DNA of 51,274 nucleotides. Origin: Promethearchaeota archaeon. GTDB lineage: Archaea > Asgardarchaeota > Lokiarchaeia > Sigyniarchaeales > SOKP01. The translations under genes and the position numbers were made by a program. The DNA is taken from contig JAEOTH010000178.1 of the NCBI GenBank assembly GCA_016839915.1, positions 1 to 51,274 of the forward strand, in the 5' to 3' direction. Positions 9,958-36,081 of the stretch are shown here, piece by piece. Within the stretch, counting starts at the first letter, position 1; each line of letters starts with the position of its first letter. The notes under the pieces are model-generated. The model worked only from the letters and a program-made list of their open reading frames with translations. It searched no databases and had not been told where the DNA came from.

Positions 9958-10527
9958 ATGAGTGAAGAGAAAGAAGCGTTACGGAAACTTATAATGCTGA
10001 TATCAGACCTTCGAGCAAAGGATGAGGAGAGATACGAAGCGCACGTGAATTTTATGAATGAAACCATTAAAATGATTAGCGCCATTGAATCTCAAATGAA
10101 TAAACATTGGAGTACTGTATTAGAATCTCTGAGTGAACTAAATGAAAGTATAAGTGCTAACTTAGATTCATTACTTACCGGTATTAATCCAAAGGGGTTG
10201 AGAGAAACATCTAAATCCCTTAAGGAAATAATGGATACTATGAATAAAAGCGTACAATCAATGAATTTAGAAAAAGTTCTTAGTGAATTAAAAGTATTAA
10301 AAACTGGAGGTATTACATATGTGCAGCCTCAACAAGTAGTTGTAGGCCAACAACCAGAACATATCTCTGCTGATACCAGTTTAAAACCATCAGGATTAAA
10401 AGCACCTTCAGGAAGAGCCACTTCTGCGGCTAGTGGTGAAAAAGAATGGGTTGATCCACATGAGAAAGCAAAAAAAGAGAAAGAAGATCAACATTTATTA
10501 AAACCGTCTGACTTTTTCGGCTCCTAA
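9958..10527 (+). CDS. Hypothetical coiled-coil protein
   Basis: I do not recognise this 189-residue protein. Residues 1-110 are continuous amphipathic helix with heptad-like Leu/Ile/Met spacing (for example LESLSELNESISANLDSLL), suggesting a coiled coil. A flexible, low-complexity linker follows (about residues 115-165, Gln/Val/Pro/Ser/Ala-rich). The charged tail ends with LLKPSDFFGS, which looks like a short linear binding motif after a disordered tether. No membrane segment is present. It is a single gene on the plus strand between the GH13 gene and a convergent dehydratase gene. It could be an adaptor or scaffold, but function is unknown. Confidence 0.7.
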   Translation: MSEEKEALRKLIMLISDLRAKDEERYEAHVNFMNETIKMISAIESQMNKHWSTVLESLSELNESISANLDSLLTGINPKGLRETSKSLKEIMDTMNKSVQSMNLEKVLSELKVLKTGGITYVQPQQVVVGQQPEHISADTSLKPSGLKAPSGRATSAASGEKEWVDPHEKAKKEKEDQHLLKPSDFFGS

Positions 10528-13980: not shown

Positions 13981-14582
13981 TTATCCTCTTACTATACGAT
14001 CATTTTCCACTAATGGTATTCTAAGATTCTGTACAACAAGATTATTAACAACTCGTATCCCATTGAAATTAGTAACCATACCATCGATATCATCATAGGC
14101 AAAATCATAGCTTGCTTCTAAAGTCCCTTGAACTTGTGTACCGGCAGTAAATTTATACCAATTTCCTCTCCGATCAGTCACAATTCTTGGGTCTACTAAT
14201 TCTATGAGAACATATGTTTTTCCTTGTTGTCTTAATTTTTCAATTTTTCTTGTTTGATATTCAATATTGAGCTCTTTTTGAGACTGATCATTTTGAAGTT
14301 TTTTATCTGGTAAGTTTTTGATTTTAATATCTAAATAATCTTGATATATTTTTGTTTCTTCAATCCATCTTGATATACTGGTTTCTAAGGGCTCAAACTC
14401 TCCCGTTGGTCTCTTGAAGACAGCTTTAGGTCCATTTGCAATAGCTTTTTCCACGTTATTCGTATGAAATGGATCCTGTATAATTTCTCCTGTAAAACTT
14501 GATATCCTTTATAAAACTCGTCTTTTTTTTCTTCTCTTTTTTCATGAAATAACATGAAATCTAACCAACTTCTTGTAATCAC
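13981..14582 (-). CDS. Conserved-looking hypothetical protein with apparent -1 frameshift
   Basis: From a GTG at 14454 there is a clean 157-residue frame to 13981. Its reading frame stays open upstream to about 14510 with protein-like content (TGEIIQDPFHTNN) but no ATG/GTG/TTG. A second frame from a GTG at 14582 covers the missing N-terminus. The two join naturally if one base is missing at the AAA run near 14508-14510, giving about 200 residues: a basic helical N-terminus, a middle containing KRPTGEFEPLETSISRW, and a beta-rich C-terminus with YVLIELVDPRIVTD and WYKFTAGTQVQGTLE. I do not recognise the family. The alternative is a shorter protein from GTG 14454 or from a non-standard start. 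It lies between the GGCT gene and a dehydratase gene, on the same strand. Confidence 0.5.
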
Positions 14583-14629: not shown

Positions 14630-15988
14630 CTAATTAAACATTTCCATAAAGGCCCCTAAACGAGTCTTAACTTGTTCTACATTCTCACCGATTTTATTGA
14701 AATTTAGAGCAATACTTGGAATTTCTAGTTCTCGGCGAACTTTTTCTTTTAACATGGTGAAGCAATTAGATATTGAATGGCAGCCAAAAAGCTGAATAAA
14801 GACAAGACCATCAGCATTTAATTTTTTAGCTATCCTCATATAAGAATCCGTTAATGCATTATTATCACACCCTATTCCATTTACAGTTGCGTTCATTAAA
14901 TAATGAGCATATGCTTCAACTGGATCAGATATCTTAGAGATAGGTATATCTTCTAATAATAATAACATATCCCAATCAGCGTACAATGCCCGACCTCCCA
15001 TTTCATATATTATCTCATGACTTTTCGGTTCCCACCCTCCAAACATAGGAGTAATTAAAATTCGGGGCATGTTACTAACATCCTTTCCAATTTTATTTCT
15101 GATTCTCTCTTTCATTTCCTTCACTAACGATGCCATATTATCTCGATATCGAATTGCATTAGAATTATAATCCTGAAAACTATTGTTTAGTATCACTAAT
15201 ATTTCACTAAATGTAGCAGGATTACAAGGATAAAATTCAGAATTACTTATTTCATATAGAATAGTTTTGTAATATTTTCTTATATCGTTAGCTACTTGAA
15301 AATGATTTCGTAGAATATTTCTGCCATAACTATTCCCACTTACCTTCTCTAATTCTCTGACAGCATCATAAAGATTCTCAGTTAGTAATTCTAATGCATT
15401 CCCGATGTTTCTTGGAGGGATGTCAATCCAAATCTGTTTAGCTGGATTTTGAATTGTTTTTAATGATTCCAGGTATTTATTCCAGGCACTGCATCGAATT
15501 GTATAATTTAATGTAGCATCTATATTCTTTCCTTTACTTACATGCATTCCATAGAGTGATTTTATTCCATAACAAAAATCACTTGGAACTCCATTTTCTA
15601 TTCCAAGCTCGTACATCTCATTATACTTATGATTCACTGTGTCTATTACATTTTCAATAATTTCATCTATAATTTTATTTATATCTCCAACACCAAGGTT
15701 TTTTATAAATCCTAGAAAATTTGATACATTTTTCCAGCCAAAAATATTTGAGGCAGAACCTAAATAGGTTAAATATTTATGCATTTCAAATTTATGCATT
15801 CTAATTGGAAATACAGGAACTAAATCAGGAAATCCATAAACTAAATCAGAAAAAGGTAATGCAACTGAAATTAATTTCTTTTTTTCTCGAAATTTCTTTT
15901 TCTTTAAATAATCTCGCCCTGTTAAAAGGTTGTATGAGATTCTAAGAACAGAACTAAACCGTACAATCTCATCAGCGATATGACTCAT
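14630..15988 (-). CDS. 2-hydroxyacyl-CoA dehydratase / benzoyl-CoA reductase-type large subunit (second paralogue)
   Basis: The 452-residue protein has the same architecture as the 10534-11886 protein: SDFCYGIKSLYGMHV in the N-terminal domain, YPCNPATFSEIL in the middle, RILITPMFGGWEPKSHEIIY in the C-terminal domain, and the cysteine pair in LFGCHSISNC. It begins three bases after the stop of the 378-residue subunit gene, so the two are coupled and likely form the heterodimeric dehydratase core, each subunit normally carrying a [4Fe-4S] cluster. The upstream activator ATPase gene supplies the electron in an ATP-dependent step. Amino-acid fermentation through 2-hydroxyacyl-CoA and aromatic-ring reduction are both possible; the sequence does not decide. 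Confidence 0.88.
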   Translation of the reverse strand: MSHIADEIVRFSSVLRISYNLLTGRDYLKKKKFREKKKLISVALPFSDLVYGFPDLVPVFPIRMHKFEMHKYLTYLGSASNIFGWKNVSNFLGFIKNLGVGDINKIIDEIIENVIDTVNHKYNEMYELGIENGVPSDFCYGIKSLYGMHVSKGKNIDATLNYTIRCSAWNKYLESLKTIQNPAKQIWIDIPPRNIGNALELLTENLYDAVRELEKVSGNSYGRNILRNHFQVANDIRKYYKTILYEISNSEFYPCNPATFSEILVILNNSFQDYNSNAIRYRDNMASLVKEMKERIRNKIGKDVSNMPRILITPMFGGWEPKSHEIIYEMGGRALYADWDMLLLLEDIPISKISDPVEAYAHYLMNATVNGIGCDNNALTDSYMRIAKKLNADGLVFIQLFGCHSISNCFTMLKEKVRRELEIPSIALNFNKIGENVEQVKTRLGAFMEMFN

Positions 15989-15991
15989 TTT

Positions 15992-17128
15992 TTATATCAT
16001 CTCCAAAAAGGCTTCTATTCTAGTATTAAGTTGACCACGTATTGCTCTTGAATAATCTCTCTCCAAGTTTAAAACTTGTATCCCTTTTTCTTGTAATTTA
16101 TTTTTCAAATGTGTTGACATAATAGAAATGTGATCACAGAATTTTATTATATGGTTTATAATCCCTAATTTTCTACCTGTCTTTTTTTTATGGTCTAGAT
16201 AAATTTTCTCAATTTGGGAAATCTTGTTTTCTAAAAAATTTGGTACAGAATGATCTCCAAAAATATTATTTTTAAATCGCTGAACTAATAAATCACACGG
16301 ATTCTCCATAGAATCTAAGATAGTATCTTCATAAATTTGAGAATAATAATTATTTCCAATCCAAGTGTCTAAATAGATAATGTTTCCTCCTCCTTCTTCG
16401 ATTAAATCAATCAGATGATCACCTATAAAGATAGAACCGCCTGTTAATAAAATATCTTTTAGACCTTTAGAAGTTAGAATTTGACTACCATTATATTTTT
16501 GAATAAATGATTCTAATTTAGGAAGAAATGAAGGGCCATATAGCATAGCACTTTGAAGAATTTTTAGTTTTTCTGATCCTTTGATGTTTAAAAGACTAAG
16601 CTCTAATAATTTTTTTTTAAAAGAATTATATTTCTTAATACTCTTCTTAATAATCTCATCTTCTATTTTATAACCAATAATATTTTCTAATTGTTTTTTC
16701 AAATCAATTAATTCCAGTTTGAAATATTTCATACTATTCTCATTCTTGGTATATGAAATATAAAAATTTAAGCGAGAAATATTAAAATATTTGGAGATTA
16801 TTTCAGAGGCACAAATATCAGAAACGCAATGATTGGAAACAATGAAAAAATCGACTAACTCTAAAAAATTATATTGATCAGGTTTTTGCGAGAACAAGCC
16901 AATACAAGATTGAGCAAATGCGCAAGTAGAAGGAGGTAAATAATCGTGGCTAGAATCCATTAAGTCATCATTTCCGGCAAACATTAGTCTTAACGGAACA
17001 AAACCCGCGGCGTCTATTAATTCTTCAGGAATATTGTCATGAGAAATGAATGCTACAATTTTTTTTCCTTCTTCTTTCTTTTCTCTTAAAAATGTTCCGT
17101 ACTCAGATAGCAGCTCTAAATTATCCAT
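15992..17128 (-). CDS. 2-hydroxyacyl-CoA dehydratase / BcrC-type small subunit
   Basis: The 378-residue protein is of the HgdB/BcrC/FldC type. It starts with a helix and FISHDNIPEELIDAAGFVPL, the usual N-terminal signature. Cysteines in PSTCAFAQSCIGLF near residues 87-93 and SNHCVSDIC near residues 117-122 match the positions of the cluster-ligand motifs in the family. The second domain begins near residue 228 with ILLTGGSIFIGDHLIDLIEE. It is the first of two closely spaced genes (three bases before the large subunit) and lies 107 bases downstream of the activator gene, so all three may share a transcript. It should form the substrate-reducing heterodimer with the 14630-15988 protein. Confidence 0.85.
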   Translation of the reverse strand: MDNLELLSEYGTFLREKKEEGKKIVAFISHDNIPEELIDAAGFVPLRLMFAGNDDLMDSSHDYLPPSTCAFAQSCIGLFSQKPDQYNFLELVDFFIVSNHCVSDICASEIISKYFNISRLNFYISYTKNENSMKYFKLELIDLKKQLENIIGYKIEDEIIKKSIKKYNSFKKKLLELSLLNIKGSEKLKILQSAMLYGPSFLPKLESFIQKYNGSQILTSKGLKDILLTGGSIFIGDHLIDLIEEGGGNIIYLDTWIGNNYYSQIYEDTILDSMENPCDLLVQRFKNNIFGDHSVPNFLENKISQIEKIYLDHKKKTGRKLGIINHIIKFCDHISIMSTHLKNKLQEKGIQVLNLERDYSRAIRGQLNTRIEAFLEMI

Positions 17129-17235: not shown

Positions 17236-18059
17236 TTACTTATTGTTCTGATCTTGAGCAATTAGAGCTGCTCCAATAGCACCTGTAAGTTGAGCACTAC
17301 TTATTCCATTAAATACTGGTATAACAACCTCGAATCCTAATTCCTGTTCTAAAAATTTCTTAACTCCTATATTTTTAGCTACACCGCCACAAAAAACCAA
17401 AAGAGGTGCAACTCCAATGCGCTTAGCCATACCTGCAACCCTTTTAGCAATTGATTTATGAATTCCCGCAGCGATATCTTCTTTTTTTGTACCCTTTGCA
17501 AAAAGGGATATAACTTCAGATTCGGCGAAAACAGTACACGTTGAACTAATTGACGCAGCATTATTAGATCTAAGTGCTAATTCTCCAATATCCTGGATTA
17601 GAACTTCAAGAGCCCCCGCCATTACTTCTATAAATCGACCTGTACCAGCAGCGCACTTTGACTATACTTAAGAATCTCTTAAGTAAACTTATCATTCATT
17701 TGGAAATCAATAACGCTACCGGTCTTTTCAGAAATTACAATTGCCTTGCTATCTTGTCCACCAATATCTATAACTGAATGTGCTTCTGGAAAAAAATATT
17801 GGACTCCACGTGCATGTGCTGTGATTTCTGTAATGCGGTCATCAGCAAACGATACGGTGTTTCTCCCATAACCTGTACTCATAACATAAATGTCATTCTT
17901 TTTCAGGTTATGTTCTTCTAAAAGCTCATTAAACAAATTATTACCTACTCGTTTAAAATCAAAAGTAGATCGCCCAACCCGATAACCCATAATATTCTTA
18001 TCGTCAAGTAACACCACTTTTGTTTCCAACGATCCAATGTCTACTCCACATGTCTTCAA
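17236..18059 (-). CDS. 2-hydroxyacyl-CoA dehydratase activator (HgdC/FldI-like ATPase), interrupted by a 32-nt putative intron
   Basis: As written the gene is split into two frames, 18059-17679 and 17622-17236. Joining 18059-17689 to 17656-17236 gives one 263-residue protein, the normal size for this BadF/BadG/HgdC family. It starts MKTCGVDIGSLETKVVLLDD (ASKHA phosphate-1 motif) and has VIDIGGQDSKAIVI (phosphate-2). The restored junction reads MNDKCAAGTGRFIEVMA. Cys125 and Cys164 (SSTCTVFAESEV) are 39 residues apart, as are the two cluster ligands of Acidaminococcus HgdC. The homodimer binds one [4Fe-4S] cluster and delivers a low-potential electron to the dehydratase, driven by ATP. Without removal of the insert the frame stops three codons after Lys124's position and the cluster cysteine is never made. 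It lies upstream of the dehydratase subunit genes on the same strand. Confidence 0.9.
17657..17688 (-). other. Putative archaeal bulge-helix-bulge mini-intron (32 nt)
   Basis: The insert sits between the second and third base of a Lys codon (AA|G), just before the [4Fe-4S] Cys codon. Minus-strand RNA folds as follows. The central 4-bp helix is UGAU (17694-17691) with GUCA (17662-17659), including one U-G pair. The 3-nt bulges are AA|G (17690-17688) and AA|G (17658-17656), each cut between bases 2 and 3. The intron stem pairs 17687-17678 with 17672-17663, nine of ten pairs with one U-U mismatch, and closes on a 5-nt loop. The outer exon helix is weak. The insert carries an in-frame UAA (17681-17679). 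Its length and phase restore the protein exactly. Confidence 0.85.
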
Positions 18060-20928: not shown

Positions 20929-21993
20929 TTGGTGAATTTTACGAGTGCTATCGAGGTACCTTCCTACGCGTTTACTTTAATCAAGATAAGTTCTTTAAAG
21001 CAACTTATAATGGATGATACTACTCTCCTTAATTTAAAAGAAATTACGGATATTAAGCAATTTATTGAATCTATAAGTATTTTTTATCCCGGACTTACCG
21101 TTAAATCCTATACAATTGAAGAAATTGAAAAAGCACTTTTTCACACATATATTAAGCTAATTGGAAGAATTATTTATATTTCTCCAACATCTATGAGACT
21201 CTTTTTAAGAAATTATTTAATGAAATATGAAATTATGAATATAAAACACGTTCTGCTAGGAACAATTTTGAGTATTAGTACTGATGAAAAATCGTCAATC
21301 GTGAATATGTTAGTCGAAAAATACCTAAATAATACAGAATTTATGAAGGAGCTGATAGAAATTCCGTCATTAGAAGAAATCCAAGTTTATATGAAACCTA
21401 CTATTTACAATAAAATAATTAGAGAAGGTATTCTTTATTTTAAAAAAACAAATGAAATATTCGTGCTAGAAAGTTTTTTGGATCAATTATATTATAATAA
21501 TTTAAAAAACGAGATAAAATTCTTAACCCAAAAAGAAAAAATAGTGATCTCTCCATTTGTAAAATATATTTCAGAGATTTACAATTTGAGAATTATATAT
21601 AGAGGAATTAAAAACAGTATTGATAAAAATCTTTTATTGCAGCTTTTAGTTGATAATTATCTATTTATGAATGAAAAGAAATTAGAAAATTTGATGAATT
21701 TAAAAGATGAAAATGAATTTTTTGATGTTCTTATAAAATATTTCAATGCAATAAAAGAATTAAAATCAGGTTTAATAAATACATCCCTTGACCAAGAACA
21801 CTTTATATGGTCTATAGAAAAATTATATTTAAATTATTATTTTAAATTATTAGAAATTAGGACTGACGATATTGAATTTCAAGCGATATATAAAATTTTG
21901 GAAGTATTAGTAAAAAAAGATAAGGAAATTCGCTTATATATTCTGCCAAAATTAGCTAATATTATATATAAAAAATACAAGTTACTAAAATGA
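20929..21993 (+). CDS. atpC: A-type ATP synthase subunit C
   Basis: The 354-residue protein fits subunit C (V-ATPase d/AC39), which links the central rotor to the membrane ring. Length, the start VPSYAFTLIKISSLKQLIMD, the repeated helical hairpins and the conserved small motif FLRNYLMKYEIMNIKHVLLG all agree with that family. The start is either TTG (20929) or GTG (20932). Its place directly after K and before the small stator and F genes supports the call. The order here (K-C-H-F-E-A-B-D-I) is a rearranged version of the usual archaeal H-I-K-E-C-F-A-B-D. Confidence 0.88.
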   Translation: MVNFTSAIEVPSYAFTLIKISSLKQLIMDDTTLLNLKEITDIKQFIESISIFYPGLTVKSYTIEEIEKALFHTYIKLIGRIIYISPTSMRLFLRNYLMKYEIMNIKHVLLGTILSISTDEKSSIVNMLVEKYLNNTEFMKELIEIPSLEEIQVYMKPTIYNKIIREGILYFKKTNEIFVLESFLDQLYYNNLKNEIKFLTQKEKIVISPFVKYISEIYNLRIIYRGIKNSIDKNLLLQLLVDNYLFMNEKKLENLMNLKDENEFFDVLIKYFNAIKELKSGLINTSLDQEHFIWSIEKLYLNYYFKLLEIRTDDIEFQAIYKILEVLVKKDKEIRLYILPKLANIIYKKYKLLK

Positions 21994-22042
21994 AATAATG
22001 ATTAATGTTAAGATGGAATAGTTTAATTAAAGTTGAGTAAGC

Positions 22043-35306: not shown

Positions 35307-35909
35307 TTAGGGTTTGAACCACTCAAAAAAATAATAACTACACGTAAGAGGATTAGCAATTACAAATTTCTTTCTCACAGATGTCGCTAAACGACCAGCT
35401 CTGACCATATCAATGGCAGTAATTTCAGAATCATGCGGTAACACATGGACCATAAATAAAGAATGCTCTAAACCGGGACCAAGACGATAAACGACAAAAT
35501 CTGCCCCAAATTTTAATCCAGGTCTAGGAATATATCCTCGTTCCCTTAAATCTTTGTATATAATATATTTTTCTTCAAACTTATGATGAGTTTTTTTCGC
35601 TATCTCATGAAAGTTCTTTGGCTTTAGGAAATTATCTGCTTTTACATCGAAAATAGTTATTTCATCCTTTTCTAATAGAAAATACGCTTCAATTAATGAT
35701 AATTCGCTTGGCTTGGAGAAGTATTCTAATCTAGGTTTATGTATCCCCAATGGGGAGCCAAAAAAGCCTTTCTTAACATATAAATAAGAAGCATACAAAG
35801 GGTTGAAAACTATGACTCTATTATTAATAAACTTTGTAGGAATTTTCTCTGGAATATCTTTTTCACTCAGATCATCAAGCGAAATTTGAAGATTCTTTTC
35901 TTTACTCAT
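35307..35909 (-). CDS. endA: tRNA-splicing endonuclease EndA
   Basis: The 200-residue protein has the archaeal EndA C-terminal nuclease domain: YKDLRERGYIPRPGLKFGAD, then FVVYRLGPGLEHSLF and TSVRKKFVIA. The catalytic triad residues Tyr142, His150 and Lys181 (numbered from the TTG at 35912) are all present, with the 31-residue His-to-Lys spacing of Methanocaldococcus EndA. An N-terminal domain with VIVFNPLYASYLYVKKGFFG precedes it. The length fits the homotetrameric (alpha4) type; no second EndA-like gene is seen in this window. The enzyme cuts bulge-helix-bulge RNA in tRNA and rRNA precursors. It could process the putative introns at 17657-17688 and 44794-44823. ATG 35909 is preferred to TTG 35912. 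It is convergent with the peptide cluster. Confidence 0.93.
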   Translation of the reverse strand: MSKEKNLQISLDDLSEKDIPEKIPTKFINNRVIVFNPLYASYLYVKKGFFGSPLGIHKPRLEYFSKPSELSLIEAYFLLEKDEITIFDVKADNFLKPKNFHEIAKKTHHKFEEKYIIYKDLRERGYIPRPGLKFGADFVVYRLGPGLEHSLFMVHVLPHDSEITAIDMVRAGRLATSVRKKFVIANPLTCSYYFFEWFKP

Positions 35910-36081
35910 CAATTTAGATTTATTTAAAGTAATTTAATAAATCTATCAATTATTCAAAATCTTAGTTAAACAAAATATAATTAGATAGAAAATCTTGAAA
36001 AGTAAAAGAATAGTATGAAATTATAAATATTTCAATATTAATTATCTTAACAGTAGGATATTAAACATCAGTGATTCAAAA

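Follow-up and report, generated by a model that had tools for sequence, protein, structure and literature searches.

A BHB intron in the crenarchaeal cbf5 pre-mRNA was reportedly described by Watanabe in 2002. The crenarchaeal cbf5 introns are 16-44 bp long, are mostly of unconventional BHB form and were lost in some lineages, according to the available part of Yokobori 2009 (PMC2738675). They sit within the codon for the catalytic Asp residue, and the cut was assigned there between bulge nucleotides 2 and 3. The same part of that paper refers to predicted introns in other genes and to putative ones of 12 bp in an archaeal virus. As of 2020, the cbf5 intron was described as the sole further BHB intron reported from archaeal mRNA, by a paper that itself adds one located in the 5' UTR of Haloferax HVO_1309 (available part of PMC7714728). 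Introns in Asgard tRNA genes are known from the Atabeyarchaeia and Freyarchaeia, often at odd positions (available part of PMC11291895). Among open-licence PubMed Central papers, we found no coding-sequence intron of the BHB kind in Asgard archaea and none in this activator gene; a report may exist elsewhere.

The window analyzed here is a stretch of 51,274 nt from a Lokiarchaeal metagenome-assembled genome (G000). The assembly contained 3.65 Mb in 221 contigs and was 93.9% complete with 6.9% contamination. The window encodes an activator of 2-hydroxyacyl-CoA dehydratase, and the features of the locus are given in Table 1. The NDKCAAGTG motif of the activator is split precisely between the Lys and Cys codons by 32 nt (minus strand, 17688 down to 17657). 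Exon 1 ends in AA, the first two bases of the Lys codon. Exon 2 begins with G/TGC, the third base of Lys followed by the conserved Cys. Translation straight through the insert gives NDKFT and then a stop. The exons match consecutive portions of the Pfam BcrAD_BadFG profile (2-135 and 137-271). Joined, they contain 792 nt, or 263 codons plus a stop, as calculated from the coordinates. The sequence, coordinates and frame thus confirmed the 32-nt insert with an in-frame UAA and the 263-residue product of the original prediction. The predicted spacing of 39 residues between two cysteines was also found, by hand count, in an uninterrupted ortholog. The Cys of NDKCAAGTG and the Cys 39 residues on presumably bind a shared [4Fe-4S] cluster. 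Five solved chains matched the intronless ortholog used as the query. The best was MbdQ (3-methylbenzoyl-CoA reductase), and 1hux, the activator of 2-hydroxyglutaryl-CoA dehydratase, was also among them. Two overlapping frames lie downstream of the dehydratase genes (13981-14582, minus strand), and the 157-aa one has no Pfam match.

Table 1. Features of the activator locus and the EndA gene in the window. A slash marks the putative cut.
Feature	Position	Strand	Basis or remark
Exon 1, activator (BadF/BadG/HgdC family), TTG start	17689..18059	-	Pfam BcrAD_BadFG, E 9.4e-23, profile 2-135 of 271
Putative 32-nt intron GTTTACTTAAGAGATTCTTAAGTATAGTCAAA	17657..17688	-	Same-junction inserts in six other species
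Exon 2	17236..17656	-	Pfam BcrAD_BadFG, E 9.4e-31, profile 137-271 of 271
UGAU, exon side of 4-bp central helix	17691..17694	-	Pairs with 17659-17662; pairing in 7/7 species
5' bulge AA/G (putative 5' splice site)	17688..17690	-	Sequence; cut between bulge nucleotides 2 and 3 as for cbf5 (available part of PMC2738675)
Inner hairpin h'	17663..17687	-	17678-17687 with 17663-17672, one U.U mismatch, 5-nt loop
In-frame UAA within intron	17679..17681	-	Translation
GUCA, intron side of central helix	17659..17662	-	Identical in 7/7 introns, the rest mostly different
3' bulge AA/G (putative 3' splice site)	17656..17658	-	Sequence; single-stranded in RNAfold; little or no outer helix
Dehydratase subunit (HGD-D family), downstream of activator	15992..17128	-	Pfam HGD-D, E 7.4e-51
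Second dehydratase subunit (HGD-D family)	14630..15988	-	Pfam HGD-D, E 1.4e-36
EndA catalytic (alpha) subunit, likely cutter	35307..35912	-	Pfam tRNA_int_endo; Tyr, His, Lys and KPR loop present

Inserts were present at exactly the same junction in seven Lokiarchaeal species from two genera. Four carriers belong to the genus of the window (G000, G016, G006 and G003) and three to another genus (G152, G144 and G148). The inserts are 30-35 nt long, with 32 nt in G000, G016, G006 and G152, 30 nt in G003 and G144, and 35 nt in G148. All seven contain an in-frame stop, and their sequences are mostly unlike one another. The gene tree was built from 57 deduplicated sequences of at least 58% identity minus four partial ones, which left 53 rows (7 with and 46 without the insert). 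The original prediction had proposed a comparison with the uninterrupted gene, and the exact junction GAY-AAR-TGY-GC was found in 46/46 noncarriers among these rows. An assembly or sequencing artefact could be suspected in a metagenome-assembled genome with 6.9% contamination. Its probability is negligible, as same-site inserts were retrieved from the assemblies of six other species, so that seven species carry different inserts at one site. The insert is really there, as the original prediction required.

Several searches support this distribution. DNA searches for orthologs matched 42 of 58 genomes in a set of relatives and 16 of 19 in a search of the genus. In an alignment of 32 orthologs, G000, G016, G006 and G003 contained the insert and the other 28 had an exact gap. 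With a covariance model from these four inserts, 63 of the 227 genomes searched in the phylum gave a match. Full-length, high-scoring matches were also obtained in G152, G144 and G148, and inspection of the sequences confirmed them. Most of the other matches were 39-nt spans, i.e., the insert-free junction. Genomes without a match were not scored as lacking the gene or the insert, because some known orthologs (e.g., in G013 and G015) fell below the threshold. The protein search gave some family match in 62 of 65 family genomes; among the matches listed, split or stop-bearing orthologs with an insert came only from the seven carriers.

Most other candidates were rejected. Eight weak covariance hits of 58-69 nt (L086, L090, L098 and L268-L272) were uninterrupted paralogs reading ..STSKCAAGTG.., and a ninth (G099, L273) has no motif of this type in any frame. 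The NDKCAAGTG site is free of any insert in the matches with internal stops from G023, G149, G155 and G004. In G013, the stop falls at residue 3, ahead of the conserved start. The intron model also had weak hits in the window that resemble chance matches; the strongest, at 10085-10117, covers 33 nt and lacks the hairpin. No other intron-like insert emerged when the window was compared with stretches of G002 and G016. Frames with matches in the window numbered 70/81 for G002 and 50/140 for G016; other rows consisted of antisense frames from the same gene or of 1-nt and 4-nt slips. The 4-nt slip lies at 21992-22000 of the window, relative to an 89-aa frame of G002. The cbf5 gene (TruB_N) of the Lokiarchaeal family contains no stop in any match listed from the 64 genomes with a match.

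To judge from sequence comparison, the insert is very probably a protein-coding intron with a relaxed (HBh') BHB motif, which would be cut out by EndA, with RtcB probably joining the exons. The fold of the original prediction was retained in part. The proposed 4-bp central helix stands, with GUCA and UGAU (UGAC in G152) forming standard pairs at the exact position in 7/7 species. The 5-nt loop was also recovered, and the supposed 10-position stem consists of nine pairs and one U.U mismatch. Both bulges read AA/G as proposed; the 5' bulge can be drawn with 3 or 5 nt, because RNAfold leaves the outermost U-A of the stem open. As for the BHB form itself, the central helix is paired in all seven species, and a proper outer helix is absent. 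The canonical outer helix (hBHBh') is missing from the predicted folds of the locus, so we assign the motif to the relaxed HBh' type and not to the canonical one. This does not exclude it from the BHB class, since the cbf5 introns are mostly unconventional too (available part of PMC2738675). The inner hairpin of the window insert alone was significant (P = 0.00085; 20,000 mononucleotide shuffles). The 61-nt fold of the G000 locus was no better than dinucleotide shuffles (z = -0.07), and the 45-nt fold of G000 (z = -1.47) and the folds of G016 (z = -1.20) and G152 (z = -1.81) were at most slightly better. Because the fold of the locus alone is not significant, we relied on the comparison with relatives.

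The 3' end of the insert is GUCA plus two bases in all seven carriers. GUCA pairs with exon UGAU, or with UGAC in G152, where the change from UGAU is one-sided and the pairing is kept. The central helix is paired at its exact position in 7/7 carriers. When it was slid by 1-4 nt either way, pairing was found in 0/7 at seven positions and in 1/7 at one. The chance of GUCA-type pairing, estimated by shuffling each insert, is about 0.05 (0.007 for G152). The joint chance is 7.7e-6 over G000, G006, G003 and one of four introns that resemble one another (see below), these being taken as unlike. At the sequence level, the comparison with relatives is decisive against chance as the source of this pairing. 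P values for the inner hairpin (shuffles) were 0.011 in G016, 0.0002 in G006 and 0.025 in G003, and the four tested inserts combined gave 1.2e-7. The inner-stem register is shifted by one base in some species. The original prediction had called for covariance in relatives. The inner stems differ in sequence between species yet still pair, and the exon contact is kept in 7/7, so the relatives do not carry one same insert without compensatory change. The central helix is part of the free best RNAfold structure in 4/7 carriers (G000, G016, G152 and G144) and is missing from it in G006, G003 and G148. When it was imposed, G006 folded at a cost of 0.6 kcal/mol and G003 at 1.8 kcal/mol, and G148 still failed.

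Removal of the insert by an EndA-type cut gives NDKC in G000, G016, G006 and G003. Lys-Cys is also restored in G152, G144 and G148, by alignment. The G003 insert ends in AAC ... AUA, and Lys-Cys results solely from the cut AA/C..AU/A, in which each site is cut behind the second base of its bulge. This bears on programmed ribosome bypassing, in which the ribosome would hop over the hairpin from the Lys take-off codon to an identical landing codon. Bypassing with matching take-off and landing codons occurs in T4 gene 60 and in mitochondrial byp elements. The inserts are indeed short hairpins, and 6/7 species have identical AAR triplets at the two ends (AAG and AAG, or AAA and AAA). In G003, however, the end codons AAC and AUA are mismatched, so a bypass would not give Lys. 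Bypassing also does not predict that GUCA is kept opposite exon UGAU or UGAC in 7/7, and the genome contains the genes for BHB removal. We consider it very unlikely.

The window EndA alpha subunit has 3p1z_B as its best PDB match (E 6.6e-37), with K44-P45-R46 (hand count) aligned to KPR. We take 3p1z to be the Aeropyrum enzyme. A second EndA subunit of G000, without the catalytic His, is encoded on contig C81, and the genome also has an RtcB gene (E 4.2e-169). G000 thus appears to encode, together with RtcB, an EndA of the hetero-oligomeric type that cleaves relaxed motifs. EndA matches were retrieved from the 65 family genomes, with at least one in 64 and at least two in 53. Both kinds are present in six of the seven carriers (G000, G016, G003, G152, G144 and G148). 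In G006, with an assembly that is 92% complete, the alpha subunit alone was found. A KP(R/K) loop is present in 21/21 Lokiarchaeal alpha subunits read (the window copy and 20 loci, L228-L247). A Crenarchaea-specific KPR loop and a hetero-oligomeric EndA have been tied to relaxed-motif cleavage (available parts of PMC12397907 and PMC6379350); the text of neither, so far as available, mentions "Asgard." The alpha gene lies about 17 kb from the intron gene, and the two share a contig in, e.g., G002, G016, G006 and G003. This linkage is probably plain synteny.

Introns are frequent in the tRNA genes of G000. Of 23 tRNA hits, 11 span 100-112 nt. ARAGORN placed introns in 11 distinct tRNA genes, of which two (L057 and L067) are doubtful. 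It also gave a tRNA-SeC gene at L070 (G000:C82). When the window intron was compared with the 23 tRNA stretches of G000, no similarity was significant (lowest P, 0.07).

Splicing would proceed as follows. In the pre-mRNA, exon UGAU would pair with GUCA near the 3' end of the intron, which would leave an AA/N site on each side. The intron would fold on itself between the two AA/N sites. The two-subunit EndA would cut each site after the second nucleotide, and RtcB would probably ligate the exons. AAR-UGY (Lys-Cys) would be regained, giving a 263-residue activator with the conserved cysteine. We infer that the activator transcript is made, cleaved and ligated in this way.

By the Nei-Gojobori method, dN/dS of exon 2 was 0.061 between G000 and G002, its nearest intronless relative. 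For G016 it was 0.046 against G000 and 0.056 against G014. It was 0.071 for G006-G015, 0.025 for G003-G008, 0.050 for G148-G154 and 0.033 for G152-G155. For G144-G159 it was 0.034, with synonymous sites near saturation. The eight carrier comparisons thus range from 0.025 to 0.071, and three intronless control pairs gave 0.056-0.059. Both exons are under strong purifying selection. The activator is most likely needed in its full form, since exon 2, behind the stop, is constrained like the intronless controls. A dead gene disabled by the insertion would agree with the in-frame stop in every carrier. It is extremely unlikely, because purifying selection on exon 2 is strong in 7/7 carriers (with the caveat of saturation for G144), seven same-site inserts have kept the exon-intron pairing and the adjoining dehydratase genes are open. 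Alternatively, the two open frames could be made as separate polypeptides that assemble. A second chain begun at 17622, the first start codon listed for exon 2, would lack the Cys of the CAAGTG motif, which is encoded ahead of that codon. The conservation of the pairing would also go unexplained, and we regard two chains as highly improbable.

The history of these putative introns is complex. The seven carriers amount to seven changes on the gene tree, and shuffled labels gave a mean of 6.8. A single gain would imply 19 losses, with a Helarchaeal row as the outgroup. The nearest neighbor is insert-free for five carriers (G000/G002, G003/G008, G006/G015, G148/G154 and G152/G155). The nearest tree row of G144 also lacks the insert, and that of G016 is G000. 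At gene distances of 0.91-1.04, the inserts of G152, G144 and G148 are similar to that of G016 (P of 0 to 0.0027; 3,000 structure-preserving shuffles). The G000 insert, at a gene distance of 0.24, is not similar to it (P of 0.08-0.10). Similarity between the G000 and G152 inserts had a P value of 0.03. These values come from 21 pairs compared; they suggest, but do not settle, that similarity among the inserts is out of line with that of the gene. Just upstream of the insert, 30 exon bases (17689-17718 of the window, set against L008 and L077) are 100% identical between G016 and G000 (86% over the gene) and 97% identical between G016 and G144 (72% over the gene). The same bases of G016 are 93% identical to those of intronless G002, 77% to those of G148 and 73% to those of G152. 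This identity is perhaps a co-conversion tract, or chance.

RNAalifold gave no common pair for the alignment of the four alike introns (G016, G152, G144 and G148), so the model built from them is of sequence only. With 150 candidates per genome, it recovered their own copies at E 6.4e-4 or better, and the next was at 0.034. It found no second copy of this intron type in the seven carrier genomes. The inserts do not belong with mobile introns of the homing endonuclease type; at 30-35 nt they have no room for such a gene and encode none. The pattern may reflect numerous losses, recurrent gain at this one site or exchange among species. It is possible, and we suggest it tentatively, that the Lys-Cys junction is a hot spot where EndA-spliced mini-introns come and go, and pass from one Lokiarchaeal species to another, independently of the gene itself. 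This could happen by reversal of the EndA/RtcB reaction or through recombination with a relative's RNA or DNA. If so, these would be a mobile class of BHB introns of 30 nt that lack a homing enzyme and occur in the closest archaeal relatives of eukaryotes. Since seven species have an insert at this site and near relatives have none, the site allows direct tests of how archaeal mRNA introns are gained and lost.

Compared with known systems, the activator insert shares with relaxed HBh' introns of archaeal tRNAs a central helix, one bulge and an open 3' site, an inner hairpin and a similar length, but it is not in a tRNA context. With the Haloferax HVO_1309 intron it would share an mRNA substrate of EndA; the HVO_1309 intron lies in a leader and not in a reading frame (available part of PMC7714728). 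The trait in common with the reported Asgard tRNA introns is an intron-rich Asgard archaeon, and the available part of PMC11291895 mentions tRNA genes only. The closest known case is the crenarchaeal cbf5 intron. Both are short, mostly of unconventional BHB form, and split the codon of a catalytic residue, and both go with a hetero-oligomeric EndA and lineage-specific loss (available part of PMC2738675). The tiny length and the location at the most conserved codon, which the original prediction considered unusual, are therefore not so, given the 16-44 bp of the cbf5 introns and their own position at a catalytic codon in that source. The two differ in that the insert studied here is in an activator gene and another phylum, its occupancy is far more scattered on the gene tree and several of the inserts are mutually unlike. 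The activator would be a second coding sequence with a BHB intron, found in Asgard archaea and in an anaerobic metabolic enzyme instead of RNA machinery. It would indicate that ordinary mRNAs, too, can carry introns served by the enzymes of tRNA splicing. Genes interrupted in this way will be split or overlooked by gene callers. What is new relative to cbf5 is the host gene, the phylum and an occupancy that is scattered, with insert sequences that seem not to follow the gene.
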